Virus record (IMG/VR): IMGVR_UViG_3300018083_000005
Location: 1-57,639 of that record
Direction: 5' to 3' (one strand)
Origin: a virus
DNA: 57,639 nucleotides
The notes under the pieces are model-generated. The model was not told the DNA's origin, did no database searches, and saw only the letters and a program-made list of their open reading frames with translations. Every line of letters begins with the position of its first letter. Within the stretch, counting starts at the first letter, position 1. Made by a program: the position numbers and the translations under genes. This document shows positions 521-55,029 of the stretch, in pieces.

Positions 521-539
521 AGTGTAGCCTACGTGTCAA
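521..539 (-). promoter_or_regulatory. Short-spaced promoter-like motif
   Basis: On the minus strand TTGACA (539-534) is followed after only 7 bases by TACACT (526-521). No -10-like hexamer lies at the usual 17-base spacing. It is upstream of the 64-residue gene 302-496. One of at least seven copies of this arrangement. Confidence 0.5.
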
Positions 540-548
540 ATCGTAGGA

Positions 549-582
549 TTTGCAAGGTAATCATTTCTGATTACCTTGCAAA
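549..582. terminator. Perfect 15-bp hairpin
   Basis: TTTGCAAGGTAATCA (549-563) pairs perfectly with 568-582 around a four-base loop. It lies directly after the stop of the leftward gene 585-752 and before the promoter-like motif of the next gene, which fits a terminator. The short T run is part of the stem end. Confidence 0.75.
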
Positions 583-584
583 CC

Positions 585-752
585 TTACGGGGTTGTGCCG
601 ACCAGCTTGTTATCCTTGGTACGGCAGTGTCGGCATGTACGCAGGAAGTAGAGTTTACCGTCTGCGTATGCGTACAGATGACCGCGCATACCAGGGATGA
701 AAGCATTACCCCTGGCAACACACTTGCAAGGTGCGTAAAGCAGCTTTGTCAC
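585..752 (-). CDS. Small putative zinc-binding protein, 55 residues
   Basis: A GTG start at 752 lies five bases after CGGAGG; the longer open frame to 839 has no ribosome site. The product carries CKC near its N terminus (about residues 9-11) and CRHC near residues 43-46, arranged as a zinc knuckle, and is basic. By family resemblance alone it could bind nucleic acid. It is followed by a strong hairpin terminator. Function unknown. Confidence 0.6.
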   Translation of the reverse strand: MTKLLYAPCKCVARGNAFIPGMRGHLYAYADGKLYFLRTCRHCRTKDNKLVGTTP

Positions 753-1022
753 GGAAACCTCCGTAGTTGTATTGCAAGTTAGGTATACTGAAAGCCCGGC
801 TTTGCGAAACTTCCAGTTTGTTCTACTGAAAATCCGCAAAATAGGCCGTATACCTAGTAGATGACCTAGTAACTACTGGTAAAGAGCTTTACCAGCCTAG
901 AAGACCCTACGAGATTCGGGGAGTCTCTGTTAGGTGTTGCATACGACAAACATTCGCCAAAAACATGCCCATTTGCAGGGAAAGCTCGTATATCAAACAT
1001 TCCCGCAAACTTCAAACTTTAC
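753..1022. other. Non-coding stretch with a 20-bp palindrome
   Basis: No convincing gene. It holds the perfect dyad CTGGTAAAG-AG-CTTTACCAG at 876-895, whose two-base centre is too small for an RNA hairpin and suits a dimeric protein site. The part before 585-752 has a loose AT-rich promoter-like stretch (TATACC near 784) without a good -35 box. Confidence 0.5.
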
Positions 1023-1045
1023 AAAGCGAACGTCTGTTCGCTTTT
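1023..1045 (-). terminator. Hairpin terminator after the 88-residue gene
   Basis: AAAGCGAAC (1023-1031) pairs with GTTCGCTTT (1036-1044) around GTCT. It lies just past the stop of the leftward gene 1053-1319. The 4-T run follows on the plus side; on the minus side a short TTTG follows. Confidence 0.75.
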
Positions 1046-1052
1046 GGCCTGT

Positions 1053-1319
1053 CTACTGCCACTGAAACTTCAGAAGTTCCTTTATGTTTGCAGGCTTGCG
1101 TCCCCTGCCACCGATGTGCTTGGCGCACATCCTGTGCTTGGTAGTGCCGTTAGGGTTCTTAGTCACAAGAACCGGCTCCTTGCAGCCCTTGACCCTGCAG
1201 TGTTCCAGCGCCACGTGCCGTAGCAGGATGGTCTGTGCAGACTCTCCTGTGACGCGCTTAGCCTTCATGACCGCGTTGCCACGGGGACTTGCAAAGAGAG
1301 GCTCAGCCTTCTTGTACAT
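1053..1319 (-). CDS. Small putative zinc-finger protein, 88 residues
   Basis: ATG at 1319 follows CGAGGGAGG with five-base spacing. The C-terminal half has a CxxxxC pair (HCRVKGC, about residues 40-45) and a later CAKH pair (about residues 68-71) separated by a basic loop, a layout seen in small zinc-ribbon or HNH-like proteins. The full HNH catalytic set is not evident. Leftward, with its own TTGACA-N7-TACACT motif upstream and a terminator downstream. Function unknown. Confidence 0.7.
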   Translation of the reverse strand: MYKKAEPLFASPRGNAVMKAKRVTGESAQTILLRHVALEHCRVKGCKEPVLVTKNPNGTTKHRMCAKHIGGRGRKPANIKELLKFQWQ

Positions 1320-1345
1320 GGTGCCTCCCTCGGTTGCCTACTTGC

Positions 1346-1364
1346 AGTGTAGCAGGCCTGTCAA
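1346..1364 (-). promoter_or_regulatory. Short-spaced promoter-like motif
   Basis: TTGACA (1364-1359), 7-base gap ending TGC, then TACACT (1351-1346), directly upstream of the 88-residue leftward gene. There is no -10 box at 17-base spacing. Confidence 0.5.
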
Positions 1365-1421
1365 ATCCCGTAGATTTCGGGTTAGCCGATATTTCCGGGT
1401 TTGTTCTGCCGTGCTAATCGC

Positions 1422-1440
1422 ATGCTACAGGCAGTGTCAA
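1422..1440 (-). promoter_or_regulatory. Weaker copy of the short-spaced motif
   Basis: TTGACA (1440-1435), 7-base gap, then TAGCAT (1427-1422). No gene starts directly behind it. It shares the CAGGCnGTGTCAAATG context with its neighbours. Confidence 0.35.
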
Positions 1441-1600
1441 ATGTTGTATTGCCCGTGCTACCCCTGCCCGTGCTACCCCTGCCTGCCTGCCGTGCCTAGC
1501 CTCCCTCCCTCGGTTGCGATCCGGACTTGCACACCGCAAGGTGACAGGCCTGTCAAATGTGCCTATGTGCAGGGCTTTCATACGTGCAGACTTGCAACAT

Positions 1601-1619
1601 TTGACAGACCTGCTTTACT
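1601..1619 (+). promoter_or_regulatory. Short-spaced promoter-like motif, rightward
   Basis: TTGACA (1601-1606), 7-base gap ending TGC, TTTACT (1614-1619). It lies 43 bases before the only rightward gene of this segment and is the single plus-strand copy of the motif. Confidence 0.45.
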
Positions 1620-1661
1620 TAGTCCTGCAGGAACAATCCTGCACCGACCGAGGGAGGCAAC

Positions 1662-2306
1662 ATGCTTTCATTCTGGTACCAGACCCAAACGGCAGGCGGG
1701 ACTTCCGCACTGCCGGGGATGGTCGAGAGTGTGCAGGACTGGAAGTCTCACACTCCCCTGCAAGTCTCACTCCGGCAGGCAGGACTGAGCGCCGCAGTCG
1801 AGCGCCGCATGCGACGCGACACCATCCTGCAGGCACGGCAGGCCGAGACTGAGCGCCGGTATGCCGTCCGGTACGCACTAGCCGCGCTGAGCGCCATCCT
1901 GCCGGGGATCGAGCGCGACCCCTGCCGATCGGTAGGCGAGCAGTTGCAACGCCGCTACGACGGGCTGAGGCAGGCACGGCGCGAGACTGAGGCAGTCATG
2001 CGGAGTGAGCCGGACGGCAGCACCCCGGCTCTTGCGATCCGCGCTCCAGGGGCGATCAATGGGCAAGAGGCTAGGTACTCCCGTCGGTGGCAGTCGAGCA
2101 GTCGGGCCTACCTTGCGACGCTGGAGGATGAACGCGGGCAGCTACTCGACTGGCAGTGCTACCGGGTGATGCCGGACGGGTCGCGCATCATGGTCGAGAC
2201 TGAGCGCAAGAGCGCCAAGAGCCGGAGCGCCAAGAGCGCCAAGTCCGACCGGCAGGCAAGGCTTCGCGCCGCTGCCGGAACGATCCGGATGGCTGAGCAG
2301 GACTGA
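1662..2306 (+). CDS. Basic helical protein, 214 residues, GC-rich gene
   Basis: ATG at 1662 follows GAGGGAGG with proper spacing. The product is rich in Arg, Ala and Glu, is largely helical, and has a lysine-serine-alanine repeat near its C terminus (three copies of an AKS-type unit at about residues 184-197). There is no recognised domain. Base composition is clearly more GC-rich than in flanking genes, and it is the only rightward gene in a leftward neighbourhood, which suggests a recent insertion. It ends at a strong terminator. Function unknown. Confidence 0.65.
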   Translation: MLSFWYQTQTAGGTSALPGMVESVQDWKSHTPLQVSLRQAGLSAAVERRMRRDTILQARQAETERRYAVRYALAALSAILPGIERDPCRSVGEQLQRRYDGLRQARRETEAVMRSEPDGSTPALAIRAPGAINGQEARYSRRWQSSSRAYLATLEDERGQLLDWQCYRVMPDGSRIMVETERKSAKSRSAKSAKSDRQARLRAAAGTIRMAEQD

Positions 2307-2323
2307 CGGCAGGCCGAAAGACA

Positions 2324-2350
2324 GCGGGGAGGGACTGTATCCCTCCCCGC
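2324..2350 (+). terminator. GC-rich hairpin terminator
   Basis: GCGGGGAGGG (2324-2333) pairs with CCCTCCCCGC (2341-2350) around a seven-base loop, 18 bases after the stop of the 214-residue gene. It insulates the late operon that starts downstream. Confidence 0.8.
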
Positions 2351-2368
2351 TTGCGAATCGAGCTACCG

Positions 2369-2397
2369 TTGTCCAAAAACTACATGTGGTGAATAAT
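2369..2397 (+). promoter_or_regulatory. Candidate late promoter
   Basis: TTGTCC (2369-2374), 17-base spacer, AATAAT (2392-2397), after the terminator and before the first gene of the long rightward block. It is a fair but imperfect sigma70-type match and the best candidate in this gap. The rest of 2351-2488 shows only the ribosome site. Confidence 0.4.
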
Positions 2398-2488
2398 CGT
2401 GTTGCCTATTCAGCAATCACTTGTGGCGATAAGTACAAGCCCTGGGCAACACCTACGATGACCCCACAGAGAGGAGGTAACCATTCAC

Positions 2489-2824
2489 ATGTCCATTAAC
2501 GATGATCTTGGATTGAACGACGAGGAGTCTGCACGACTAAAGGAACTGAGCGACGCGCTTCAGTCGGAGTTTCATGAAAACCAATCAAATTCAGACGGGA
2601 CGCGCAAAAGTGCATTGCAGGATATTGAGGATTTGCGCGCAGACTTCTTGGCTGCAATTAAACACGTGACTCGTCACGCGCAGAGTGATGCCCTCAAAGC
2701 GAAGGTTGCTATGTGGGGCTACGAGAAGTTGCTTGAACAGGGTAAGGCGAGTGTTGACCCGATCAGGGAACTTATCGAAGGCATGGAAAGCGCGAGGCAA
2801 ACTGTTAAGACTACTAAGGACTAG
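2489..2824 (+). CDS. Helical acidic protein, 111 residues, start of late operon
   Basis: ATG at 2489 follows GAGGAGG with rather long spacing of about 11 bases; no nearer start exists. The product is almost all predicted helix and highly charged. First gene of the late block. It could be a small virion or packaging protein (a small terminase is possible by size and fold type), but no motif proves it. The next gene follows ten bases later behind AGGAGG. Confidence 0.65.
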   Translation: MSINDDLGLNDEESARLKELSDALQSEFHENQSNSDGTRKSALQDIEDLRADFLAAIKHVTRHAQSDALKAKVAMWGYEKLLEQGKASVDPIRELIEGMESARQTVKTTKD

Positions 2825-2834
2825 GAGGTAACTA

Positions 2835-3479
2835 ATGGCATCATTGACTGCTACCCCGAATCCGGGCGCAGTAGGTACGCCTGTAACACTTTTGGGAGAA
2901 GGCTTTGCAAACTCCACAGAGGTCATTGTTGAGATTGCTGGCGCTGGTTTCAAGTCGGAAATTGTGTCGTCCGGTGCAGGAGCGTTTAGTTCGGCAGGTT
3001 TGGCAGATCACGCCACTGTGACGCTCACATCGACAGGTAACGCGGCCACGTCTGAAACGGTCACACTAGGTACACAGGTCTATACGCTTAGGTCGGGTAC
3101 GAACACGTTGCTGCCTAACGAGATTAGGCTAGGTGCTGCAGCGACCGATACGCTCGACAATATCAAGGCGGCTGTGAACAATGCTGCAGGCGAGGGCGTA
3201 ACCTACGGACTTGGTACGCTGAAGAATGCTGACGTGTTTGCAGGGCCGAAGACGGCTACCACGATTATCTTCTATGCACGTAAGCCCGGTACGATCGGTA
3301 ACAGCATTGTTTCGACTGAAACCCTGACAACCAATGCGTTTGGTGCGGGTACGCTTACAGGAGGCGCTGCTGCGCTTGCTAAGGCACTTGATTGGACGCC
3401 TGCAGATGAAGGAACCTTTAGAGTCACTGCGACGGATGGAACGAACTCAGCTGCGCTCGACGTGAGAATCTTCACTTAA
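2835..3479 (+). CDS. Virion protein with Ig-like domains, 214 residues
   Basis: ATG follows AGGAGGTAACTA. Residues 1-50 read as an IPT/TIG-like Ig domain (TPNPGAVGTPVTLLGEGF). The middle (about 60-170) matches a module recurrent in tailed-phage structural proteins, with DTLDNIKAAVN and a late ETLTTNAFGAGTLTGG. The last 40 residues form another beta segment. Such proteins decorate capsids or tails and often bind surfaces. Placement in the block before the terminase suggests a capsid-associated adhesin. Exact role not known. Confidence 0.6.
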   Translation: MASLTATPNPGAVGTPVTLLGEGFANSTEVIVEIAGAGFKSEIVSSGAGAFSSAGLADHATVTLTSTGNAATSETVTLGTQVYTLRSGTNTLLPNEIRLGAAATDTLDNIKAAVNNAAGEGVTYGLGTLKNADVFAGPKTATTIIFYARKPGTIGNSIVSTETLTTNAFGAGTLTGGAAALAKALDWTPADEGTFRVTATDGTNSAALDVRIFT

Positions 3480-3488
3480 ACGTAAATC

Positions 3489-3953
3489 ATGGCTGATGGC
3501 GTAACCCTACCACTAAGCGGCGCTGGCGATGTTACAGCGATTGTTGCAACCGACGACGCTGGTGCATTTGGGCAGATACAGTTAATTGGATTTGCTGTAC
3601 AATCGCCACAAGTTCAGATACTTCAATCGGTTAACTTGGCTGCGGGTGTCAATGTTGATTTGACGGCTGCAGATATTACTACAGGCAAGCTAGGACGTTT
3701 GCTTGGTGCAGATATAGGTTGTTCTGTGCCGATTCGATGTGACCTACAAACTATTAGCGGCGCACGGACTACGCGAACCACGGTTTACACAAGGGAAGGG
3801 CAGACCTTCCCGTGGCGAGTGCCGATGGGCGGTAAATGGATTGAACTTGCAGGAGGCGCTGGCAAGGCTTTTGGCGCTTCGATTACAAACCTCGACGCGG
3901 CTCAAGCTGCCGATGTACGTGTAATTCTCTATTGGGATGAGGCAAATCCGTAA
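3489..3953 (+). CDS. Beta-rich virion protein, 154 residues
   Basis: ATG at 3489 has little ribosome-site support, so translation may be coupled to the gene ending ten bases earlier. The product is low in charge and rich in Ala, Gly, Thr and Val, with a C-terminal ASITNLDAAQAADVRVILYW. That ending resembles the end of the 538-residue protein 4638-6254 (LDASEAADLYSMV). The two may share a terminal domain. A structural role is inferred from composition and context. Confidence 0.55.
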   Translation: MADGVTLPLSGAGDVTAIVATDDAGAFGQIQLIGFAVQSPQVQILQSVNLAAGVNVDLTAADITTGKLGRLLGADIGCSVPIRCDLQTISGARTTRTTVYTREGQTFPWRVPMGGKWIELAGGAGKAFGASITNLDAAQAADVRVILYWDEANP

Positions 3954-4252
3954 TGGCTGATGTTCGCGCAAAGAAAGCTAAGGTTGCTCCAACTAGTAAG
4001 CCTAAGAAACCCAGAGCACCGCGTAAGCTCTATACGCTTACTGCTGATGAACTGCTTGAGTACCAAAACAGGCACAGGTTGCTCTTGACAAAGCAGATGG
4101 AGTTCCATGCAGCTAGTAACTATATGGATATATACCAGAACGCACTAATTGAGGAACACGGACTCCCGATCAAGTTTAACCTCAACATCGAAACTGGCAT
4201 TGTTACCGAGGTGGGGGTGGAGGAACCTAATGCCCAAAATGGTCGTGTATGA
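3953..4252 (+). CDS. Basic N-terminus small protein, 99 residues
   Basis: Starts in TAATG overlap with the preceding gene. Residues 1-25 are strongly basic with Lys-Ala-Pro repeats; the rest is helical with YQNRHRLLLTKQMEFHAASN. No known domain. Its end overlaps the next gene by 23 bases. Coexpressed with virion genes. Function unknown. Confidence 0.6.
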   Translation: MADVRAKKAKVAPTSKPKKPRAPRKLYTLTADELLEYQNRHRLLLTKQMEFHAASNYMDIYQNALIEEHGLPIKFNLNIETGIVTEVGVEEPNAQNGRV

Positions 4253-4418
4253 ACTTTTTGAGGTAGAGGCCAAGTCGCCCGAAGCTGCAAAGGAAGCAGT
4301 CCAAAAGAAGTCGAAGAAGAATTCCGTGATCGTAGCGGCTTCTAGTCTAAATGAACTGGCGCACCCGGTTCACCTAGCCGAAGCTCAAGACAAGTTCGGC
4401 TCTGACGATGGCAGATAA
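4230..4418 (+). CDS. Small protein, 62 residues
   Basis: ATG at 4230 has GGAGG six bases upstream, inside the end of the previous gene. The longer frame to 4149 has no ribosome site and is rejected. The product starts MPKMVVYELFEVEAKSPEAA and reads as a small alpha/beta domain of the kind that converts an amino-acid pattern such as EVEAxSPEAAxEAV. Function unknown. Overlaps the next gene by 11 bases. Confidence 0.6.
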   Translation: MPKMVVYELFEVEAKSPEAAKEAVQKKSKKNSVIVAASSLNELAHPVHLAEAQDKFGSDDGR

Positions 4419-4638
4419 AGGCCCAGGCCCACAGGAGCTAGTCCGGAAGCGGGTCACCGCTGAAATCAAACGCCTTGAGTTTATGATTGAGTCACAGGAG
4501 CTTGAGGTTATGGAAACGTTCGACAAGATCGAACGACTCAAGGAAAACATCGAGGCGTCTAAAAAGGAGATTGAGAAACAGGAGGGCAACTTGGAAGCTA
4601 TCGATAAGGACAACCCTGAAGGGGGTGAAGAAGCCTAA
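4408..4638 (+). CDS. Coiled-coil protein, 76 residues
   Basis: ATG at 4408 lies within the end of the previous gene, with no clear ribosome site. Residues 12-65 form a continuous heptad-like helix full of Glu, Lys, Ile and Leu, ending in an acidic tail. It could be a small scaffold or bundle protein. Followed in TAATG overlap by the 538-residue virion protein. Confidence 0.55.
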   Translation: MADKGPGPQELVRKRVTAEIKRLEFMIESQELEVMETFDKIERLKENIEASKKEIEKQEGNLEAIDKDNPEGGEEA

Positions 4639-6254: not shown

Positions 6255-6263
6255 TAGATAATA

Positions 6264-8827: not shown

Positions 8828-9265
8828 ATGCAGAAGCCACTTATTGCAGGTATAGCTGTCGGTATTATTCTACTTATTAGTGGTGGAGCTACAGCCGTTC
8901 AGTTAAGTGCAAATTCGACGGCGATCAATCCTGCACTTGGCGCACCCCCCGTGAGAGTTGTATCTGTTAGTGATACTGCTATTCAACTGGACTATGGGCC
9001 GTCGCAACCTGGCCCATTCAAAGCAGGTGTAGCAAAGGCAACGTCACTGGTAATTAACTGGCCCGCATCAATAGATACACTTCATCCAATAGGTCTTACA
9101 TACACAGTTGTCAAGGATGGCGTAGTTATCAATTCAGGACTCGTCGGTAACTCTATTAAAGTAAGTTTTTCTCCAAAGATACGTTCATTCAGATTTTGTG
9201 TTAAAGCTGTAAACTCTGCAGGTATATCCTCGCCGTTTGGTTGTACAACTTTTACAGGACAGTAA
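8828..9265 (+). CDS. Membrane-anchored FnIII-like protein, 145 residues
   Basis: ATG at 8828 follows AGGAGTAAAT; the longer frame from 8723 has no ribosome site. Residues 5-25 are a hydrophobic signal-anchor (GIAVGIILLISGGATAV). The remainder reads as a fibronectin type III-like beta sandwich with SLVINWPAS and FRFCVKAVNSAGISSPFG and two cysteines that could pair. It is probably exported to the cell surface or carried on the virion. Overlaps the regulator gene downstream as TAATG. Confidence 0.6.
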   Translation: MQKPLIAGIAVGIILLISGGATAVQLSANSTAINPALGAPPVRVVSVSDTAIQLDYGPSQPGPFKAGVAKATSLVINWPASIDTLHPIGLTYTVVKDGVVINSGLVGNSIKVSFSPKIRSFRFCVKAVNSAGISSPFGCTTFTGQ

Positions 9266-9657
9266 TGTATGATGCGGATACTCTGCTACAAAGATGGCTT
9301 GCAGATGAATCCGATCGCGCAGAACGTGCATGGGATAATCTAATCAATGCGATACGTAAAGCTCCAAATATTCCACTACATGATCTAGATAAATGGATTG
9401 AACTCAATCATCAACTGCCCCGTACAGGGCGGGATGATCGTAGACCAAGACCGAAGATCGTGGACAAACTAACTAAGAGACAAGAGCAGGTATTGCAGAT
9501 GTATGCCAGTGGTCTATCCCGTGAGGAGATTGGTCAGAGACTCGGGATATCTCCTGAGACAGTGAAGAATCACTTTGCTAGAGCGCGTTATAGACTAGGA
9601 GCATTGACTTCTGCAAATGCTGTTGCCATTGCTATACGAGAAGGTTTCATTAAATAG
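9265..9657 (+). CDS. LuxR/GerE-type DNA-binding protein, 130 residues
   Basis: The C-terminal 62 residues form a LuxR-family helix-turn-helix: LTKRQEQVLQMYASGLSREE, then IGQRLGISPETVKNHFARAR with conserved Glu, Leu and Val positions and a closing AIREGFIK. The N-terminal half is a helical segment rather than a receiver or ligand-binding domain. It is embedded in the late operon just upstream of packaging genes, where it could adjust late transcription. A second LuxR-type protein lies at 42418-42621. The start at 9265 (TAATG overlap) is preferred over a TTG at 9241. Confidence 0.8.
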   Translation: MYDADTLLQRWLADESDRAERAWDNLINAIRKAPNIPLHDLDKWIELNHQLPRTGRDDRRPRPKIVDKLTKRQEQVLQMYASGLSREEIGQRLGISPETVKNHFARARYRLGALTSANAVAIAIREGFIK

Positions 9658-17837: not shown

Positions 17838-18292
17838 TGGCACAGGATTACTATGATATCCTACAACCCTTTGATTTCATCGTTGACCTACTTAACGATA
17901 ACAAGGCAACCCTGGGCCTTCGCTACATTGCTCAGAATGATGAGGAACTTATCCCACAGTATCCCGCTGTGTTGGTTCAGACAGATCGGACAGATACGCA
18001 ACAGCATGCTACGGGACAATTTCTCAAACAGTTCTACCTTGACCTGTGGGTTTTTCACGCAGAGCTAACGGTAGGTAGGGCGACTCGTTCACGTAAGGAT
18101 ATTGAACTGGCAACAGCAATTCGACACCTGCTCCACACAAACTACACGCAGAATGGTCATATCATCTTTGGATTTGTGAATGGTGAGAACCCTGGGATAG
18201 CTGCAAGGATCATCGGGGGTAGTCTCTCCACCATAGTTACAACTCGGCTAACGTGGGTTGGTGAAAATCGAGTGCCCTACGAAGTTGGATAG
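17837..18292 (+). CDS. Tail terminator candidate, 151 residues
   Basis: Mixed alpha/beta protein with YPAVLVQTDRTDTQQHATGQ and a central FYLDLWVFHAEL strand, then a helix with ELATAIRHLLHT. Size, fold pattern and gene order match the protein that caps the tail tube at the neck. No unique motif, so the call rests largely on synteny. Confidence 0.65.
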   Translation: MAQDYYDILQPFDFIVDLLNDNKATLGLRYIAQNDEELIPQYPAVLVQTDRTDTQQHATGQFLKQFYLDLWVFHAELTVGRATRSRKDIELATAIRHLLHTNYTQNGHIIFGFVNGENPGIAARIIGGSLSTIVTTRLTWVGENRVPYEVG

Positions 18293-18303: not shown

Positions 18304-18543
18304 ATGGCATACAAGTTGGAAGTGGATCATCCCGATTTCCCAAAGGATTGGGAATTCGATATGGATGGTGTTCTCGTCAAGAATGGTGGTTCTGCAACAT
18401 TGACTGAGGAAGACGAGCTAGCCATCTTTAATCGAAGTGGTGGACTCACAGTTAAACAGGTCTTTGGGCACAAAGATGTACCCGACTATATCAAGTTGAC
18501 GGGTACAAAAGCGTCCGATGTGAAAGAAGGGGGTGACACTTAA
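18304..18543 (+). CDS. Small protein before tail tube, 79 residues
   Basis: ATG follows AGGAGG. An acidic small domain (GVLVKNGGSATLTEEDELAI, then KLTGTKASDVKEGGDT). It lies between terminator and tube genes and overlaps the tube gene as TAATG. Possibly a tube-associated factor. Function unknown. Confidence 0.6.
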   Translation: MAYKLEVDHPDFPKDWEFDMDGVLVKNGGSATLTEEDELAIFNRSGGLTVKQVFGHKDVPDYIKLTGTKASDVKEGGDT

Positions 18544-19538
18544 TGCCTGCTGGACTAGGTGGAGGCGGTAAGGTAGGTATCGCCTTTGAAACTACTATGG
18601 GCACATATGTTGCCCCAACGATCTTCGTTCCGATTCTCAGTGAATCTCTGATGTACAACGAAGATAAGTATTACTCTGAGCAGATTCGTCAGCAGACGGT
18701 TGTTTCTGACGTGAAGCAGAGTTTCTACCATGTCGAAGGCGATATCGAAATGGAAGTCGATCCTACTAACCTCCCATATTGGATGTACGCTTCCCGACAC
18801 ACAATTGCTAAGTCGGCTGGCCCTCCGTATACCTACACGTATACGCCGTCGTCGGCTGGTTCTGCAAGCACAGCGGCGGGTACGACGACTCCTAAGACGC
18901 TCTCAATTACTATCGTTCGTAACAGCGTCGTGTTCGGCTATACAGGCTGTGTCGTCGGTAGCTTTGAATTCGTCCTGGGTATGGACGACGGTGTACTTCG
19001 CTGCACTATGAGTGTTCTCGGCCTAGCCGAAGCAGTGCAGTCGGCTCCGTCGCCTTCGTGGTCTGCACCCGATCTACTTGGTGCCGCCGCGCATCAGGTG
19101 TATCTTGCCGCGTCCGCCGCAACGCCTACGTTCGGCGCTGCAGATACGGGATTTAATGGATTCACATTCCGTGCTAACTACAATGCAGAGGCACAGAACA
19201 GAATCAATACGCTCAGGTCGGCAAGCTATATCAGCTACGGGATCACGGAAGCCGAGATTGAGTCGGAGCTTGACTTCCTCACCCGTACTGACTATGACAA
19301 CATGGTTGCCAATACTACCCGTGCTGTCAAGCTTGAGTCGGCTAACGGTGGAGCTACATTCGCCGCTGGTTCGTCAGGCGTGAAGCTGCAGGGTAACAGA
19401 GTCAGCTATGACACCTACGAGGTTGGCCTTGAAGGAATGGGTGACCTGATCATGGCAGGATTCACTGGTCGCTGTGTCGGTATTACGTCTGGTAACCCCT
19501 ATCAGATCGAAGTCAAGTCAACTGCGAATATCACGTAA
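18543..19538 (+). CDS. Major tail tube protein, 331 residues
   Basis: Assigned by position before the chaperone frameshift pair and the tape measure. The sequence has a repeated strand pattern, with KVGIAFETTMGTYVAPT at the start (a frequent opening of tube proteins), FEFVLGMDDGVLRCTMSVLG in the middle and FRANYNAEAQ later. The length suggests two tube-type beta domains. A stable hairpin follows the stop, as is common after this highly expressed gene. Confidence 0.8.
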   Translation: MPAGLGGGGKVGIAFETTMGTYVAPTIFVPILSESLMYNEDKYYSEQIRQQTVVSDVKQSFYHVEGDIEMEVDPTNLPYWMYASRHTIAKSAGPPYTYTYTPSSAGSASTAAGTTTPKTLSITIVRNSVVFGYTGCVVGSFEFVLGMDDGVLRCTMSVLGLAEAVQSAPSPSWSAPDLLGAAAHQVYLAASAATPTFGAADTGFNGFTFRANYNAEAQNRINTLRSASYISYGITEAEIESELDFLTRTDYDNMVANTTRAVKLESANGGATFAAGSSGVKLQGNRVSYDTYEVGLEGMGDLIMAGFTGRCVGITSGNPYQIEVKSTANIT

Positions 19539-42375: not shown

Positions 42376-42404
42376 ACCCTATCAAACGACGGGGCTTGTG
42401 TCAA
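42376..42404 (-). promoter_or_regulatory. Sigma70-like promoter with extended -10
   Basis: TTGACA (42404-42399), 17-base spacer, TAGGGT (42381-42376) preceded by TGA, giving TGnTAGGGT. It lies between the LuxR-type gene and the nuclease gene and would start the recombination-replication run. Confidence 0.6.
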
Positions 42405-42417: not shown

Positions 42418-42621
42418 TTATTTCAATATCCCTTTTCTGAATCCAATAGCAACGGCGTGTGTAATATTCTTTGCCTGTAGCTCATAGAGTATTTGTGTTC
42501 TATGGAATTTCACTGTCTGTGGAACAATCCACAGCTTATCAGCAGTCTGTCGTAGTCCCAGACCTTGTGCTGCACACTGAAGAACCTCTAGCTGTCTCGG
42601 TGTTATTGGATTGCTGACCAT
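42418..42621 (-). CDS. LuxR/GerE-type DNA-binding protein, 67 residues
   Basis: The whole protein is a LuxR helix-turn-helix: ITPRQLEVLQCAAQGLGLRQ, then ADKLWIVPQTVKFHRTQIL and the ending AVAIGFRKGILK, which parallels AVAIAIREGFIK of the late-block regulator 9265-9657. No sensory domain. AAGG site before ATG at 42621; it overlaps the upstream gene by 19 bases and lies next to a promoter for the recombination genes, which it could control. Confidence 0.8.
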   Translation of the reverse strand: MVSNPITPRQLEVLQCAAQGLGLRQTADKLWIVPQTVKFHRTQILYELQAKNITHAVAIGFRKGILK

Positions 42622-46367: not shown

Positions 46368-46829
46368 TCAACCATGTATCATAGCAAGCGCCTCTGGAAT
46401 TGTCAAGCCCTGCTTCTGTAACGATTTGAATTTGAGGTACGCTGTGTGACAGGACTTATTTTCGTTTCGTTTGTGGAACAGAGCGCCGTCTTTAGCACCC
46501 TTTATCGGTTTCCTACAGGCTTGACATATCGGACGAGCTAGCTCTGTTACGGCGTCCCTGGCTTGAGTGAATGTGTAGCCTCTGACAACCATGAGCAATT
46601 CTATCTCGTCTGCATGTTTGGTTAACCAAAGCTCTTGCCGACAAGTACGGCACGTAGTACGATAAAGGTCGCTCCCTTGAAGCACAGTACCACAGTGAAT
46701 GCATTTTGCTCGGTGATCTATTTGATCTGAACACTCAGCACACCAGCCAGTATCGTAGTTAAAATTGAGATACGAAACCCAATCCCCGCAAGAGGTACAT
46801 AGTTCCTCTAGGTCGGGAATTGCAGACAA
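46368..46829 (-). CDS. Multi-zinc-ribbon protein, 153 residues
   Basis: TTG start is the likeliest, with weak site. At least four Cys pairs: CTSC (11-14), CAEC (30-33), CIHC (43-46), CRTC (60-63), then CQAC near 102 and a His/Cys end (HKRNENKSCH). The last part resembles an HNH-type finger without a full catalytic set. Probably DNA- or RNA-binding. Its 3' end contains the helicase promoter. Confidence 0.65.
   Translation of the reverse strand: MSAIPDLEELCTSCGDWVSYLNFNYDTGWCAECSDQIDHRAKCIHCGTVLQGSDLYRTTCRTCRQELWLTKHADEIELLMVVRGYTFTQARDAVTELARPICQACRKPIKGAKDGALFHKRNENKSCHTAYLKFKSLQKQGLTIPEALAMIHG
46378..46406 (-). promoter_or_regulatory. Consensus sigma70 promoter of the helicase
   Basis: TTGACA (46406-46401), exactly 17 bases, TATGAT (46383-46378), inside the 3' end of the upstream zinc-ribbon gene. 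It is the best canonical promoter in the window. A second TTGACA follows at about 46377-46372, just after the -10 box. Confidence 0.8.
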
Positions 46830-47571: not shown

Positions 47572-47642
47572 GAATTAAAACGAAGGAGAGGGACACGTAA
47601 CAGCTTGTTTAAAGCCGATGCATGCCCCTCTCCTGAGCGTGT

Positions 47643-47655
47643 ACCAAGGGAGGTA
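47643..47655 (-). promoter_or_regulatory. Exact complement of the early-gene ribosome-site leader
   Basis: The plus strand reads ACCAAGGGAGGTA, identical to the leader before several leftward genes, so a minus-strand RNA carries UACCUCCCUUGGU. With the promoter at 47692-47664 it would lie at the very 5' end of the transcript. On the plus strand it precedes only a six-codon ORF. Confidence 0.5.
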
Positions 47656-47663
47656 CATGCCGC

Positions 47664-47692
47664 ACGGTAGCACGTAAATCCCTAGTTGTCAA
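47664..47692 (-). promoter_or_regulatory. Promoter candidate with extended -10
   Basis: TTGACA (47692-47687), 17 bases, TACCGT (47669-47664) preceded by TGC. It would start transcription near 47657, leading into the structured leader and the Rpf gene. Confidence 0.5.
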
Positions 47693-48314: not shown

Positions 48315-48401
48315 TTAGCAGCCTCGTTGACCAATTCCCAGGATTATTGATACAATCAGTGTTGCAAGAATCAGGAAACGACCGTCCCATACCCAACTCA
48401 T
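48315..48401 (-). CDS. 28-residue single-span membrane microprotein
   Basis: ATG at 48401 in ATGA overlap with the 325-residue gene. One hydrophobic span (FLILATLIVSIILGIG), short basic/Cys end. The 80 bases after it hold only a small AGCT-type dyad and the leader of the next gene. Confidence 0.55.
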   Translation of the reverse strand: MSWVWDGRFLILATLIVSIILGIGQRGC

Positions 48402-49738: not shown

Positions 49739-49776
49739 ATGTAACCTCCCTTCAGTAACTTGAAGTTACGAAAGTC

Positions 49777-49795
49777 AGTATACCACACGTGTCAA
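49777..49795 (-). promoter_or_regulatory. Short-spaced promoter-like motif
   Basis: TTGACA (49795-49790), 7-base gap ending TGG, TATACT (49782-49777). It stands between the hairpin at 49802-49859 and the 24-residue gene. No -10 box at 17 bases. Confidence 0.55.
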
Positions 49796-49801
49796 GACAA
49801 T

Positions 49802-49859
49802 TGTGGGGCTAGAGGTTGCCGTCACCCCGCTAGAGGAGATTATTTCCTCTAGCCCCACA
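49802..49859 (-). terminator. 14-bp hairpin with alternative inner stem
   Basis: TGTGGGGCTAGAGG (49802-49815) pairs with 49846-49859. The loop contains a further CTAGAGG (49830-49836) that could compete for the same arm, as in attenuators. It lies directly after the stop of 49863-50015. Confidence 0.7.
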
Positions 49860-49862
49860 CTT

Positions 49863-50015: not shown

Positions 50016-50028
50016 TTCGGTGTTAGTT

Positions 50029-50067
50029 GGGGAGTGTAGCAAACCGTTGCTTTTCACTACACTCCCC
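50029..50067 (-). terminator. 11-bp hairpin after 50084-50422
   Basis: GGGGAGTGTAG (50029-50039) pairs with CTACACTCCCC (50057-50067). It lies 16 bases after the stop of the gene 50084-50422. No T run follows. Confidence 0.7.
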
Positions 50068-50083
50068 ATTCTACGAGTCTAGC

Positions 50084-50422: not shown

Positions 50423-50447
50423 TGTCTCTCCTTCGTTTGTTGGTGCA

Positions 50448-50924
50448 TTAGGTACTGCTCTTTGCCTTGGACGTGCCAAGTCTTTTACCTCCCTCAATCG
50501 CATCTAACCGGGCCTTAATTTCAGTAAGCTCCCGGTCGAAGCTCAAAATGAAACCGTTTATGTCTACTCCCTGTAACCTCCTTTGCAAGTCTTTGACCTG
50601 TTGACGGACTGTATCAAGCTCTGTGGGTTTTGTCAAGCGTTTCTCGTAAATACCCACATACTCGTCGTATTCAGGCTTGTGGCGCAGCAGTATCACTGAG
50701 CCTTGCCGACCTGAACCACGCTTTACCTGTTCAATACAGCCCATCGCTGTGAGGGCGTCGAATATCTTTGTGTAATAGCCCTGACTCACGCCGATAGCGC
50801 GGAAGGCTTCGACCTTCGATCCCTCAAACTTTAGTGTACCACCGTTGTCAAGTGGAGCGGCACGTTTTTCAAGCTCGTCGTACATGTGAGCCATGTGAGT
50901 GAAGATAGCCGGAATGTCACTCAT
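50448..50924 (-). CDS. Winged-helix plus coiled-coil protein, 158 residues
   Basis: Residues 30-95 read as a winged helix (AFRAIGVSQGYYTKIFDALT, then MGCIEQVKRGSGRQGSVILL, helix-turn-helix followed by a hairpin wing). Residues 108-145 form a coiled coil suited to dimerisation. A transcription factor or replication initiator is plausible. The start overlaps the HNH gene as TAATG. Confidence 0.65.
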   Translation of the reverse strand: MSDIPAIFTHMAHMYDELEKRAAPLDNGGTLKFEGSKVEAFRAIGVSQGYYTKIFDALTAMGCIEQVKRGSGRQGSVILLRHKPEYDEYVGIYEKRLTKPTELDTVRQQVKDLQRRLQGVDINGFILSFDRELTEIKARLDAIEGGKRLGTSKAKSST

Positions 50925-51390
50925 TACTCTTTAGCCACTCCTCTAGGAACTCGTCCCGTGCGGCCTTAGCCAATTCCTTAGTGGGGAAGTATCCCACGTG
51001 TCGAGTCTTCCCGCCGACCGATATTGACGCTTGCCATGGATTTTCGATCTTGTCAGGCTTGAGCTTGATCCCTGTGTCGGGGTTATCTTCGTACCGTCGT
51101 CGGATATTCTCGGCATTCGGTAGAAAACGCAAATTCTCTTTCTGATTGTCTAGACCGTTAGTATTGATATGATCGATAACCATACCACGTGGTGCATTTC
51201 CCATAACTAGCTGATGCATGAGAATTGTATTGCGCGAAGACCCTCCGAATACCGTTTGAGCATACATTACATCACTTTCCCGCACACGCATCGGATACCA
51301 CTTTAGCCGAGACAATAGTGGGAAATCTTCGTCGTCCACTTTTGCAAACAGTGCGAGTATCAAACTCTCTCCAACAACAATCTGTTTCAT
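50917..51390 (-). CDS. HNH endonuclease with AP2-like domain, 157 residues
   Basis: The central HNH core reads MHQLVMG then VIDHINTNGLDNQKENLRF, with His, Asp-His and Asn-Asn in the expected order. The C-terminal part (WQASISVGGKTRHVGYFPTK, then an AKAARDEFLEE helix) is an AP2-like DNA-binding domain. This is the layout of free-standing homing endonucleases. It overlaps both neighbours by four to eight bases, so it is integrated in the operon. Confidence 0.85.
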   Translation of the reverse strand: MKQIVVGESLILALFAKVDDEDFPLLSRLKWYPMRVRESDVMYAQTVFGGSSRNTILMHQLVMGNAPRGMVIDHINTNGLDNQKENLRFLPNAENIRRRYEDNPDTGIKLKPDKIENPWQASISVGGKTRHVGYFPTKELAKAARDEFLEEWLKSNE

Positions 51391-51686
51391 ACCTTATCCG
51401 TCCCCGCGACAAAGCAATCCCTGCAGACGAACAAGCCTTCTCTGATTTCAAAGACATGTCGCACCGGATACTTCTTTCGTATTTCTATTTGCTCCGGGGA
51501 TAGCATCTTCTGTGTTTCTTTATGACCGACAACTGTACACCAGCCCGGAATTGTGGGCAGAGTAAACCATACAGTTTGAATTCTCGGCTCAGTGACAAGA
51601 TCACGCTTAGTACGCGAAATTGATTCCTTACGGAATTCGTCCCCACTGATTACTTCAAAGAGAGAGTCTTGCTCTGCCTCACTCAT
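51387..51686 (-). CDS. Small protein with LFEVIS motif and CxxC, 99 residues
   Basis: ATG follows AGAGGAAACAA. Residues 9-18 are LFEVISGDEF, as in 40615-40794. The middle has WFTLPTIPGWCTVVGHKET and the end CRDCF. Coexpressed with the HNH gene by ATGA overlap. Function unknown. Confidence 0.65.
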   Translation of the reverse strand: MSEAEQDSLFEVISGDEFRKESISRTKRDLVTEPRIQTVWFTLPTIPGWCTVVGHKETQKMLSPEQIEIRKKYPVRHVFEIREGLFVCRDCFVAGTDKV

Positions 51687-51837
51687 TTGTTTCCTCTAGC
51701 TCGGCCTCGTATTCTAGTCTGGACTGTTGACATAGACTAAGCAACTCGTTACCTCGCGCTATGTATTTATCCCTTCGCTCTAGTTCTTTTACTAGGCGAG
51801 CAAGACGCCTTTCATATGCGATAGCAGCGAATCTCAC
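51679..51837 (-). CDS. Coiled-coil protein, 52 residues
   Basis: GTG at 51837 in GTGA overlap. Almost all charged helix (ERRLARLVKELERRDKYIAR, then an acidic LEYEAELEETNE end). It overlaps the next gene by 8 bases. Function unknown. Confidence 0.6.
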   Translation of the reverse strand: MRFAAIAYERRLARLVKELERRDKYIARGNELLSLCQQSRLEYEAELEETNE

Positions 51838-52163
51838 TTCTCGCTATCCTCAAAGTTGAAGTTGAGGATTTTGCTCAGCTTCACGTAACCCATAGGTGCG
51901 TATGCACCATCGGCTCGTTTGAGCAGGATTTGCTCGTAGTCATCGATGATCTTGCTATGGAAGATAATCCCATAGGTAATGTTGAATCGATCACCATTGA
52001 GGACTACCGTATCTTTCTTTGCCTTCACAGCAGTCTGAAGCTGTGACATAGCAATAGGATTAAGCCACTCGACACGATCCCTATGCTTATGATCGAACAC
52101 GTCAGCCTCCCTACTAGAGACTGTATCAGGCGGCGACCAATGAGACTTAGCTAGTTCTTTCAT
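51834..52163 (-). CDS. Unknown protein, 109 residues
   Basis: ATG follows CGGAGGAGTA, in TAATG overlap with the zinc-ribbon gene. Mixed alpha/beta with MSQLQTAVKAKKDTVVLNGD and an ITYGIIFHSKIIDDYEQILL helix-strand part. Function unknown. Confidence 0.6.
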   Translation of the reverse strand: MKELAKSHWSPPDTVSSREADVFDHKHRDRVEWLNPIAMSQLQTAVKAKKDTVVLNGDRFNITYGIIFHSKIIDDYEQILLKRADGAYAPMGYVKLSKILNFNFEDSEK

Positions 52164-52345
52164 TACTCCTCCGTTGACGAGGGTAGGAAGTTAATTGTCT
52201 TAGCACCCTCTATGCATTCAGGGTTATCGTTGCAATACCTAACATTCTGTTGTATAGGAACGCTACCCATGTACCTAGTGGTACTGTACACAGATATCTG
52301 AGCGTCCTCACGTACTTTGCCACACACGTGACATTTCCATGTCAT
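52163..52345 (-). CDS. Zinc-ribbon protein, 60 residues
   Basis: CHVC at residues 5-8 and a second pair Cys38/Cys44 (YCNDNPEC) make a short ribbon. Overlaps the 137-residue gene by one base. No further motif. Function unknown. Confidence 0.65.
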   Translation of the reverse strand: MTWKCHVCGKVREDAQISVYSTTRYMGSVPIQQNVRYCNDNPECIEGAKTINFLPSSTEE

Positions 52346-52758
52346 TAGCTAGCCTTCAAGAGTGGATCGGTGCAGACCCATTCGACTTCTTCCTCGACAA
52401 TCTCCGGGGAATAGTGAGCGGCATGCACGATCTTGTTTCCTGTCTTGACTGCCTTGCACACAACCTCACGCGCAACACTCATACGAAGATTCAACTTCGT
52501 ACCGAATTGCCTAGAGATTGTAAGCTGTGTACCCTGGTAATCCTTTTTCACAGGCTTCAGAATGCGAACCATCTGCTTCGTGATGGATTTCTTTTCCTTC
52601 GCACTCAGTTGCTCAAAAGTCTGCCGCTGGTAGTACGGTAGATAAATCGTAGCAGCCAGCGTAATATCATTTACGGGCATTTCGACTCCCCTATCTTCAA
52701 GGAAATCAGCAAGCTCCCGTAGGGATTCCACTAGGGCATCCCTCTCCTTATACCTCAT
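52345..52758 (-). CDS. Unknown protein, 137 residues
   Basis: ATG at 52758 is well placed behind ACCAAGGGAGGTA; a GTG at 52764 lies too near. Helical N terminus (DALVESLRELADFLEDRGVE), a basic middle (AKEKKSITKQMVRILKPVKK), and a C-terminal alpha/beta part. Its leader lies within the coding region of the upstream membrane gene. Function unknown. Confidence 0.65.
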   Translation of the reverse strand: MRYKERDALVESLRELADFLEDRGVEMPVNDITLAATIYLPYYQRQTFEQLSAKEKKSITKQMVRILKPVKKDYQGTQLTISRQFGTKLNLRMSVAREVVCKAVKTGNKIVHAAHYSPEIVEEEVEWVCTDPLLKAS

Positions 52759-52924
52759 CTTCACTTACCTCCCTTGGTTCTGGAAACCATTTGGATTCTA
52801 GGATACGCTCGATATCATCTTGCATATCCAACATTTTGTTGTGAATGATAATTACGTAGATAATCAGGATTGCTATACCGATATCCTGTATTGCATCGAC
52901 TAGATCACCACTAACGGTAGGCAT
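52748..52924 (-). CDS. 58-residue single-span membrane protein
   Basis: ATG at 52924 follows AGGAGCTTCG. One span at about residues 15-27 (IGIAILIIYVIII) with charged flanks and an acidic end. Its last codons contain the leader of the next gene. Overlaps upstream gene by 14 bases. Confidence 0.6.
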   Translation of the reverse strand: MPTVSGDLVDAIQDIGIAILIIYVIIIHNKMLDMQDDIERILESKWFPEPREVSEDEV

Positions 52925-53288
52925 CGAAGCTCCTGTTGATTAGTTCATCCTTCATGATGAAATTCTCAAGCTCCATGTCTGCCTGCTTCACGATCCTAGC
53001 CCACGGCACATGGATACCACACGCCTTTGTGAATCCACCTTGTCCAGACTTGCGAATATCAAACTCATGTTCATACAAGATTCCAGCTTCACTCAGGAAA
53101 TAATCACGGAACGGATAGTCTCCGGATGTAGTAGCGGTAGTACCATCATGCTCAAATACCCACCATCCCGCTTCGTACTGTCCGGCTGATGCATCGGGGT
53201 AGACACGATCTTCTAGCGTTACCGTGATCTTACCACCCTTGTCAAGCCGACATATAAGCGTTTCACCAGCTTCAGGCACCGGAACCAT
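52911..53288 (-). CDS. Unknown protein, 125 residues
   Basis: Start ambiguous: ATG at 53288 lies directly on GAGGGG, while GTG at 53279 has better spacing. Beta-rich with TLICRLDKGGKITVTLEDRV and GWWVFEHDGTTATTSGDYPF; helical end. Function unknown. Confidence 0.6.
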   Translation of the reverse strand: MVPVPEAGETLICRLDKGGKITVTLEDRVYPDASAGQYEAGWWVFEHDGTTATTSGDYPFRDYFLSEAGILYEHEFDIRKSGQGGFTKACGIHVPWARIVKQADMELENFIMKDELINRSFDAYR

Positions 53289-53505
53289 CCCCTCTGATTA
53301 GCCTAGTAGTTGGCTGCTCACAGAAGAATGGTTTATCGTTACCAGCGTAATGAGCCATCATCCCTGTGACTCCTCCACACTTACTGCAGTGATAATGGTT
53401 TGAATCACCAGCAGGACAATGTGCATAGCCTGCATTGCAGATCATTACACCAGGCTCAATCTTGGTGGCTTTCTCGTATGTCATTATAGTCCGGATGTTA
53501 TTCAT
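53272..53505 (-). CDS. Zinc-ribbon protein, 77 residues
   Basis: ATG at 53505 overlaps the end of the 55-residue gene. Contains CNAGYAHCP, HCSKC near the middle and FFCEQP, consistent with one or two zinc sites. Function unknown; similar small ribbons are common in this block. Confidence 0.6.
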   Translation of the reverse strand: MNNIRTIMTYEKATKIEPGVMICNAGYAHCPAGDSNHYHCSKCGGVTGMMAHYAGNDKPFFCEQPTTRLIRGDGSGA

Positions 53506-53665
53506 CCTCTGCCCCGAATTCAAAGTCGTCACGCATGCGATCATAGACCGCTTGCTTGATTTCGTCGTCGGTCATGTCGGCCATCGGAGAATCAAAGTCG
53601 TTCTCCTCTGCCCAGACGCGAGGAGCTTCCTCTTGCCAGTTGTCTCTGTAGTCTTCGATAGGCAT
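53498..53665 (-). CDS. Acidic protein, 55 residues
   Basis: ATG at 53665 follows ACCAAGGGAGATAC. Strongly acidic (WAEENDFDSPMADMTDDEI and an end EFGAEDE) and helical. A 113-base structured leader separates it from the DUF932 gene. Function unknown. Confidence 0.65.
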   Translation of the reverse strand: MPIEDYRDNWQEEAPRVWAEENDFDSPMADMTDDEIKQAVYDRMRDDFEFGAEDE

Positions 53666-53680
53666 GTATCTCCCTTGGTT

Positions 53681-53793
53681 TGTGGAGAGTGTACGGATCA
53701 GGTGAAATCCTGACGAGGCCAGTTTTCAGTCATGGGACGCAGGGCTTCAATCCTGCACGACGACGATTTAGACCTTGACGTACACTCTCCACA
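53681..53793 (-). ncRNA. Structured leader closed by a 15-bp stem
   Basis: TGTGGAGAGTGTACG (53681-53695) pairs perfectly with 53779-53793. The 83-base interior holds two smaller hairpins (TCAGG/CCTGA near 53699-53714 and GCAGG/CCTGC near 53742-53759). It lies between the DUF932 stop and the ribosome site of the 55-residue gene. No T run, so it is more likely an RNA element than a plain terminator. Confidence 0.6.
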
Positions 53794-53806
53794 CTTAATT
53801 GACTGT

Positions 53807-54814
53807 TTAGGCAGTCACGTCCGCGAGAACCTTCAAGACCACTTCATCCTCGGCACCATTCTTGCCGTTGATCAGGTTCTCCATATTCCTGACCTGACGC
53901 GGGACACCCTTCCGGATCGTGCCCATGTGAAGTCTCCACGTATTGTACGCGGCGCTGACTCCAAAGGCCGTACCCCTCCACGGTGCAACGCGCAGGTCAT
54001 TGTTGTACAGATTCACAATGTCCGCTCGCTTATGCTCAGCCTTGGTCATTGCGATCTTGCTAAGATCATCATTCACGGGAATCATGATCTGAAGGTGCTT
54101 GAGAAACTGCTCGTCAGACACCTTCCATGCTGTAAGGTTAGCAACCTCCTGAGCAAACTCGTCGGACATTTCATGCACGATCTGCAATGCCTCACGTGCA
54201 TCGTTAATCCGATAGCCTGAATACTTGGTATGCTTAACCTTGAACTGCTGACCCTCCTCGCCAAGCGCCATATCCCTAGTGTTATCACACACAACGTCTG
54301 TGCGAACACGCTTGAAGGTTGTGGCGAGCGTACCATCGAAACTGGTAGCCGCGAGAAGATTCGGGCGAAACTCCACGCCTTCCGGCGTAGTGATGTTCTC
54401 AGGAACCTCGACAGAAACCCATGCCTGACCGCCCATCCTGAGAAGACCCGCCGAACCGATGCCAAGATCATCGTCCAGAATGGTTGCAACATTCTCAAGC
54501 AGCCACTCCTGGTACTGATGACCCCGGTAGCCATCCTTGAAGACTCCGAGGACTACCCCGTTATCGTCACGGACGACAGCCTTGCGGCCGGGAATCTCCA
54601 CGTACTCGCCATTCTGCTTGCGAATGTACATGGGAGAATCCACAACCTCAAAGTTGAACAGACGACGTAGAACGTCGTCCACCGGAACCGGGCCGACATA
54701 ATGGTTTGACTCGATACCCTGAAGCTCCTGGCGATAGTGCCAAGCATTTCCACGCTTCTCGGTATAACCGATAAGAGTGTTCAGGTTGAGCCACTCCATT
54801 GACTCTCGGCTCAT
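53807..54814 (-). CDS. DUF932-type phage/plasmid protein, 335 residues
   Basis: ATG follows AAGGGAGGTAAGT. The DUF932 pattern is visible: IPGRKAVVRDDNGVVLGVFK near residue 73, then YQEWLLENVATILDDD, TRDMALGEEGQQFKVKHTKY, and a C-terminal helical part. Proteins of this family are common in phages and plasmids with unsettled function. It has its own promoter-like motif and a structured leader, so it is probably an abundant early protein. Confidence 0.8.
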   Translation of the reverse strand: MSRESMEWLNLNTLIGYTEKRGNAWHYRQELQGIESNHYVGPVPVDDVLRRLFNFEVVDSPMYIRKQNGEYVEIPGRKAVVRDDNGVVLGVFKDGYRGHQYQEWLLENVATILDDDLGIGSAGLLRMGGQAWVSVEVPENITTPEGVEFRPNLLAATSFDGTLATTFKRVRTDVVCDNTRDMALGEEGQQFKVKHTKYSGYRINDAREALQIVHEMSDEFAQEVANLTAWKVSDEQFLKHLQIMIPVNDDLSKIAMTKAEHKRADIVNLYNNDLRVAPWRGTAFGVSAAYNTWRLHMGTIRKGVPRQVRNMENLINGKNGAEDEVVLKVLADVTA

Positions 54815-54850
54815 ACTTACCTCCCTTGAGTAGTTTGACCGTATGCTTTC

Positions 54851-54869
54851 ATTATAACATACGTGTCAA
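54851..54869 (-). promoter_or_regulatory. Short-spaced motif with consensus TATAAT
   Basis: TTGACA (54869-54864), 7-base gap ending TGT, TATAAT (54856-54851). It is the best copy of the motif: both boxes are perfect, and TG forms an extended -10. It drives the DUF932 gene 37 bases downstream. Confidence 0.6.
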
Positions 54870-54892
54870 GGGACAGTTTCTCACGCTGACCC

Positions 54893-54974
54893 CACTGAGG
54901 TACCGAGTGCCAGCCGATGCTGGTCGGGGTATAATTGCTCCCACCCGATACCTCAGTGCGGCCAGCGACCGCAC
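54893..54974 (-). ncRNA. Structured RNA candidate upstream of DUF932
   Basis: CACTGAGGTA (54893-54902) pairs with TACCTCAGTG (54949-54958), and CCAGC/GCTGG form an inner hairpin. GTGCGG (54956-54961) pairs with CCGCAC (54969-54974), sharing bases with the first stem, so two exclusive folds exist. ATTGCTCC (54934-54941) could also pair with GGAGCAAT (54995-55002). A minus-strand promoter lies at 55029-55001. No ORF. Confidence 0.55.
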
Positions 54975-55000
54975 ACTCCCTGCGAACAGCCACAGGAGCA

Positions 55001-55029
55001 ATCTTACCACAGTTTACCACTTGTGTCAA
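55001..55029 (-). promoter_or_regulatory. Promoter of the structured RNA
   Basis: TTGACA (55029-55024), 17 bases, TAAGAT (55006-55001). The short-spaced form is also present: TAAACT (55016-55011) after 7 bases ending TGG. This is the one site where both arrangements coexist. Confidence 0.6.

Follow-up and report, generated by a model that had tools for sequence, protein, structure and literature searches.

Does the hexamer TTGACA, when it stands only 7 bases before a -10-like hexamer, belong to a promoter or to an operator? The question was raised by a phage DNA of 57,639 nucleotides (IMG/VR virus record IMGVR_UViG_3300018083_000005), the whole of which is referred to here as the window. An earlier note on this DNA had listed seven such sites and offered two explanations, an operator resembling the stoperators of cluster A mycobacteriophages or an unusual promoter architecture. 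Layouts with a gap of 7 or 17 bases between TTGACA and the -10 hexamer are termed N7 and N17. Judging from the sequences compared, N7 has the appearance of a promoter class that has gone unnoticed, and a private phage operator seems unlikely, since the same layout was found in related phages, in Oshimavirus phages and at Chloroflexota genes.

Spacing and anatomy of the sites in the window and its relatives

All TTGACA hexamers of the window were listed with the bases found 7 and 17 positions downstream. Nine exact matches to TTGACA-N7-TANNNT were present, all nine on the minus strand, whereas 300 dinucleotide shuffles averaged 0.48 matches and none had more than 3, so that the enrichment over shuffled sequence called for in the earlier note was observed. 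When gaps from 0 to 45 bases between TTGACA and TANNNT were counted, peaks were observed only at 7 (n = 9) and at 17 (n = 6). The seven sites of the earlier note were all found in place with a 7-base gap, and the TG was confirmed in five of them (1364, 49795, 54869, 55029 and 1601). Their description as TTGACA-N7 followed by a -10 hexamer held for the spacing and not for every hexamer, as the plus-strand site at 1601 has TTTACT rather than TANNNT; in addition, three exact minus-strand matches (19330, 50851 and 53245) had been missed, of which 50851 and 53245 carry TG and lie in sense orientation. TG precedes TANNNT by one base in six of the nine exact sites. The N17 sites numbered six (55029, 50636, 47692, 46406, 42404 and 29953; TG in five) instead of the three claimed, and at 55029 a single TTGACA has a -10 hexamer at both distances.

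The window contains 50 TTGACA hexamers against 34.5 +/- 5.7 expected, 14 of which belong to N7 or N17 sites; when these are subtracted the remainder is at chance level. This distribution is relevant to the operator explanation, in which TTGACA would be bound by a repressor monomer and would overlap an extended -10 promoter. Cluster A stoperators are 13-bp sites with the consensus GGTGGMTGTCAAG, of which CTTGACA is a part. N7 sites share with them CTTGACA, asymmetry and orientation with transcription, and a fixed orientation of this kind is typical of cluster A sites (PMC9283540). In contrast to the stoperators, many of which lie away from promoters, TTGACA outside the promoters of the window is at chance; the CCACC half is absent, the bases after CTTGACA being variable and followed by TG; and no repressor gene, and thus no counterpart of the dedicated cluster A repressor (gp71 of L5), was recognised among the 30 proteins compared with Pfam and the 20 compared with PHROGs, which are part of the open reading frames (ORFs). 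The stoperator reading was rejected from the site distribution and the consensus, and a repressor operator of this kind is quite improbable.

Relatives of the window phage were IMG/VR contigs found by DNA polymerase similarity, blind to the motif, and the five longest (G002, G003, G007, G008 and G009; 42-57 kb) were used, with gene starts from a simple caller. Between TTGACA and TANNNT, 20 matches were counted at N7 and 17 at N17 compared with about 2 at other gaps, so that the 7-base enrichment was recovered in related phages; these counts are not all independent, as some sites are orthologous (e.g. window 54869 and G003 10144). Between TTGACA and TGNTANNNT, 10 were counted at N7, 12 at N17 and 0-2 at other gaps. 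G007 had no TG-bearing N7 site. In a search of all 4096 hexamers at all offsets up to 60 bases upstream of TGNTANNNT in the six related phages, TTGACA led at N17 and N7, which are 10 bp apart, and the only hexamers with scores near these were overlapping neighbours of the same box. Exact hexamers with TG in the six genomes numbered 16 at N7 and 17 at N17, compared with 0.35 at other gaps, and hexamers with one mismatch numbered 4 and 4 against a background of 2.4, which makes the two classes equally strict. The TG-bearing sites were intergenic (11 of 16 for N7) or intragenic in sense orientation, and none was antisense in these genomes.

The N7 logo reads (a)C-TTGACA-N4-TG-S-TANACT-G....T(-1)A(+1)G(+2) where transcription would be expected to begin, with a bias to G at -6. 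In several cases an ATG with its ribosome-binding site is found 20-36 nt downstream of the promoter site. The N17 class has CTTGACA and TG as in N7, but its -10 is weaker and the hexamer tends to be followed by A. Thus the 7-mer CTTGACA, which contains the consensus TTGACA of sigma region 4 (sigma4), is common to both classes. The -10, the TG and the start-site signature together point to promoters of the sigma70/sigmaA type. N7 sites resemble extended -10 promoters of this type in having TG-N-TANNNT, in needing no -35 (the logo is flat at -35, and no -35 is conserved at N16-18) and in a predicted start 7 bases downstream; ordinary extended -10 promoters, however, lack an invariant CTTGACA at -26 to -20. 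Transcription from N7 is predicted to start about 7 nt after the -10, from T(-1), A(+1) and the leaderless ATG codons of a phage fragment described below (G014).

At -26 to -20 the box overlaps -24 to -18, the stretch of the Z-element (Yuzenkova 2011), and a strong contact of the beta' zipper there might replace the -35. The position agrees with that given for the Z-element in PMC4496709, and the zipper contact is known to help the polymerase bind promoters (PMC5101437). The likeness is in the spacer position; the contact is described mostly as one with the backbone at -17/-18 (PMC5101437), its specificity for sequence is treated as unsettled (PMC4496709), and no hexamer is defined in these texts. 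Such a contact would leave unexplained why the hexamer is invariant and matches the -35 consensus, and the Z-element is a slim prospect as the explanation of N7.

N7 sites in other phages and in Chloroflexota

Oshimavirus phages were chosen without the motif, P23-45 being picked for its gp39, which displaces sigma4 by about 45 Å and spares the extended -10 phage promoters (PMC7403470). P23-45 had five N7 sites and one N17 site, TSP4 had seven N7 sites (compared with at most 1 at other gaps) and no N17 site, and stolb1 had three N7 sites plus one with a mismatch. The N7 sites of P23-45 are at 17941, 23846, 32378, 38141 and 38361 on the minus strand of EU100883. Several N7 sites lie in corresponding genes of the three phages (dCTP deaminase, Holliday-junction resolvase), and one TSP4 site stands ahead of a rightward block running into the terminase and head genes. 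Matches to gp39 (structure 3WOD) were confined to Thermus phages of the Oshimavirus group. The first 50 kb of phiYS40, a Thermus phage not among these matches, had seven N17 sites and no N7 site. In 100 kb of the Thermus plasmid pTT27, TTGACA was too rare for spacings to be compared. P23-45 has its own RNA polymerases (PMC10770324), and some of its sites might conceivably be theirs. As a general explanation, however, a phage polymerase is disfavoured by the window family, which has the extended -10 signature although none of its proteins examined was such a polymerase.

Further, unrelated phages were obtained from an IMG/VR pattern scan with the motif itself, which was not used as a count. As G013-G018 and the L390 group were found in this way, only their additional sites count. 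IMGVR_UViG_3300011434_000025 (G014; L322, L323), a 23-kb fragment, has seven N7 sites, all forward and all with TG, and at nearly all of them an ATG or GTG follows about 6 bases after the -10, any other site lying directly ahead of such a codon; this spacing predicts leaderless genes, in which the first base of the gene is also the start of transcription. A soil group (L390, L391, L397, L404 and L407) has three N7 sites, two of which form a divergent leaderless pair, 240 bases apart, conserved in the five contigs. Control contigs, retrieved with the gap set to 8 bases, had N7 at background level and an enrichment of N17. Proteins shared between the window family and G013, G014 and G015 were structural only (G013 and G015) or none (G014). 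Six Lachnospiraceae-like genomes (L337, L339, L343, L344, L347 and L348) contain a near-identical promoter-like stretch, AACCTCCTTGACAATTTTGGTATACTGACGTTAGCATTAAG, possibly part of a mobile element.

The best matches of the large terminase subunit (TerL) of the window phage were in actinophages (about 35%). No N7 site was found in the actinobacterial phages Wollypog, Trogglehumper and REQ1, and the two in Ronaldo were both without TG; an actinobacterial host architecture as the source of N7 was accordingly disfavoured. When Chloroflexota were searched for the primase, two distant matches were obtained, one of them on a 5.4-kb contig.

Among GTDB genomes the long form of the motif gave 23 matches, 7 of them in Chloroflexota. 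In 201 Chloroflexota genomes, 32 occurrences of TTGACA-N4-TGNTATACT were counted, compared with 6 of the N5 control. In 400 Chloroflexota genomes, CTTGACA-Nk-TGNTATACT occurred 40 times at k = 4, compared with 12 in the six other gaps combined (3 at k = 2, 2 at k = 3, 2 at k = 5, 1 at k = 6, 1 at k = 7 and 3 at k = 8); the 40 sites include about 6 from the seed genomes and several orthologous ones, such as those at rho. Among the genes that follow the sites are rho, ornithine/aspartate carbamoyltransferase, an RRM protein and a treble-clef protein. No such peak was observed in Pseudomonadota (two of five matches at k = 4), and in Bacillota there was at most a weak one (5 of 12).

The same geometry in Thermus phages and at cell genes of Chloroflexota, where no private phage repressor could act, further disfavours the operator proposed by the earlier note. 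Its other proposal, the unusual promoter architecture, gained support from the exact spacing, the extended -10, the start-site signature, the sense orientation, the leaderless starts and the recurrence in unrelated phages and bacterial chromosomes. Chance, or an artefact of the choice of motif, is hardly credible as an explanation. Some sites do resemble chance matches (19330, those of G007, and G009 15745) and several phages were found by the motif; nevertheless, the enrichment was also seen blind to it (9 against 0.48 in the window, 20 against about 2 in the relatives, 7 against at most 1 in TSP4 and 40 against 2 per gap in Chloroflexota), and random contigs had no N7 enrichment.

Proposed reading of the displaced box

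The N7 promoters may be read by a host RNA polymerase of the sigma70/sigmaA type, with sigma4 or a small sigma4-like protein reading CTTGACA one turn nearer to the -10; we hold this tentatively, at just short of an even chance. The extended -10 (TG-S-TANACT, start at A+1) would be bound in the usual way by sigma regions 2 and 3. CTTGACA at -26 to -20 would stand in place of the -35, one helical turn (10 bp) closer, and sigma4 or the sigma4-like protein would dock there. A phage protein that shifts sigma4, as gp39 of P23-45 does, would favour N7 over the -10/-35 promoters of the host, and the second set, with CTTGACA at N17, would give two promoter sets between which the state of sigma4 could switch. 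Two steps are inferred here, namely the reading of the box by sigma4 and the switching of sets by a phage factor. The box has the sequence of the sigma4 consensus, the same phages also have this 7-mer in the normal position, and the displacement amounts to one turn; sigma4 or a sigma4-like protein is therefore the simplest reader.

Several observations weigh against this reading. No gp39 homologue was detected in the window family (hmmsearch with a gp39 profile against all ORFs of the family; best E >2), and no phage factor explains the Chloroflexota sites, so that a shift of sigma4 would need other helpers or be a property of the host; the presence of the layout in Chloroflexota chromosomes likewise disfavours a purely phage-made mechanism. 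Dedicated DNA-binding proteins, too, typically have a strict box without mismatches. Finally, 9 of 33 Chloroflexota N7 sites have an extra TTG at N17 or N18, the normal -35 position, and in these the -25 box may be read besides sigma4. On the other hand, N7 is near-exclusive in the Thermus phages that carry gp39 and phiYS40 uses N17, which argues against a mechanism of the host alone. A broader form of the proposal, somewhat less than an even prospect, is that N7 represents a second normal sigma70-type architecture, in which the sigma4 box is displaced by one turn before an extended -10 and sigma4 docks in two registers, in Chloroflexota and several phage lineages.

The extra TTG also favours a dedicated activator, of phage or host, that would bind CTTGACA, assist the polymerase from this fixed place just upstream of sigma region 3 and, by working one turn further upstream as well, give the N17 class. 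The exact hexamer, the exact spacing and the small tolerance of mismatches would suit such a protein. We nevertheless consider it rather unlikely: the box, with the C before it, is exactly the -35 consensus, three or more unrelated phage groups and one bacterial phylum have it, and no DNA-binding protein shared between N7 users was found. The binders suggested by the earlier note fared poorly. The LuxR-type proteins as sole binders were rejected, being not conserved in G008, conserved in part elsewhere and so not throughout the N7 users. The winged-helix protein (50448-50924, minus strand; AlphaFold2 predicted local distance difference test score, pLDDT, 78) was rejected as a MotA-like activator, as its best PDB matches were RepA_N-type initiators (5KBJ and 4PQL, E 2-3e-3) and MotA was not among the top matches. 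A conserved ORF at 51834-52163 gave a weak model (pLDDT 65) and no fold match.

Two known systems provide the closest comparisons for reading by sigma4. In the gp39 switch of P23-45 the polymerase of the host is directed to phage promoters of the extended -10 type, and the gp39-bearing Oshimaviruses are N7 users; the window family differs in lacking a gp39 homologue. The middle promoters of T4, controlled by AsiA and MotA, similarly combine an extended -10 with a replacement of the -35. The MotA box lies at about -30 and is read by MotA. The N7 box, in contrast, is the unaltered sigma4 consensus at -25, and no family match to AsiA or MotA was obtained among the window proteins scanned. A promoter class with TTGACA at -25 was not described in the open-access literature searched, though the primary papers on P23-45 promoters may hold part of it. 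Promoter finders, which assume a spacer of 15-20 bp, therefore miss N7. Should sigma4 or another factor indeed read TTGACA one turn closer, the view that the distance between sigma regions 2 and 4 is rigid would change, and sigma4 movements of the gp39 type would serve to block host promoters and possibly also to open a second register. N7 would also give a promoter code that can be tested in the Chloroflexota, a little-studied group, and in Thermus phages amenable to laboratory culture.

Predicted promoters and genes along the window

The N7 class of the window stands ahead of small genes near the ends and of a conserved 335-aa gene, and the N17 class includes promoters ahead of the helicase and exonuclease genes. 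At the left end, predicted N7 promoters on the minus strand were located at 521-539 (TTGACA-cgtaggc-TACACT), 24 nt before the ATG of ORF 496-302, and at 1346-1364 (TTGACA-ggcctgc-TACACT, with TG), 26 nt before the ATG of ORF 1319-1053. A promoter-like site without TG at 1422-1440 (minus; TTGACA-ctgcctg-TAGCAT) lies 102 nt before the latter ORF, and a weak N7-like site with TG at 1601-1619 (plus; TTGACA-gacctgc-TTTACT) has a -10 without A at position 2. The match at 19312-19330 (minus; TTGACA-gcacggg-TAGTAT, no TG) is antisense within the tail gene 18543-19538 and is probably due to chance.

At the right end all the predicted N7 promoters are on the minus strand and have TG. The site at 49777-49795 (TTGACA-cgtgtgg-TATACT) is upstream of ORF 49637-49365; that at 50833-50851 (TTGACA-acggtgg-TACACT) lies in sense orientation within the winged-helix gene, and G002 has an N7 site in the same gene; and that at 53227-53245 (TTGACA-agggtgg-TAAGAT) lies in sense orientation within ORF 53288-52911. 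The site at 54851-54869 (TTGACA-cgtatgt-TATAAT), whose counterpart is G003 10144, precedes the ATG of ORF 54814-53807 by 36 nt, and that at 55011-55029 (TTGACA-caagtgg-TAAACT) has its counterpart at G003 10322. The TTGACA of the last site is shared with a second extended -10 at N17 (TGGTAAGAT; 55001-55029). In G009 (L077), TTATCCACA, a DnaA-box consensus, lies at most about 15 bases upstream of TTGACA at three N7 promoters, near 48395, 48929 and 49272.

The other predicted N17 extended -10 promoters, also on the minus strand, lie at 50608-50636, upstream of ORF 50503-50084; at 47664-47692, followed by TACCTCCCTTGGTA; at 46378-46406, 32 nt before the helicase gene 46345-44837; and at 42376-42404, before the exonuclease gene (start as called, 42338). 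The winged-helix gene thus has its own N7 and N17 promoters inside the coding region. Two LuxR/GerE-type helix-turn-helix proteins are encoded in the window, at 9265-9657 (plus) and 42418-42621 (minus), the second of which, with 67 aa and assigned to this type from a reading of its sequence, is a candidate regulator. Scans of the window for Rfam families and tRNA gave no matches.

TACCTCCCTTGGTA or a close variant is conserved just downstream of some N17 promoters, at about 47640-47660 (minus) in the window and in the regions of G002 8726, G003 5538 and G009 3145. It is the reverse complement of ACCAAGGGAGGT, which occurs at many ribosome-binding sites of the window family, and this complementarity might allow a hairpin that masks the ribosome-binding site, or a regulatory leader. 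Positions 1-123 of the window are identical to positions 57517-57639, and G009 has identical ends of 141 bases; the identical ends indicate that the window record is probably a complete genome, with a circular map or a terminal repeat.

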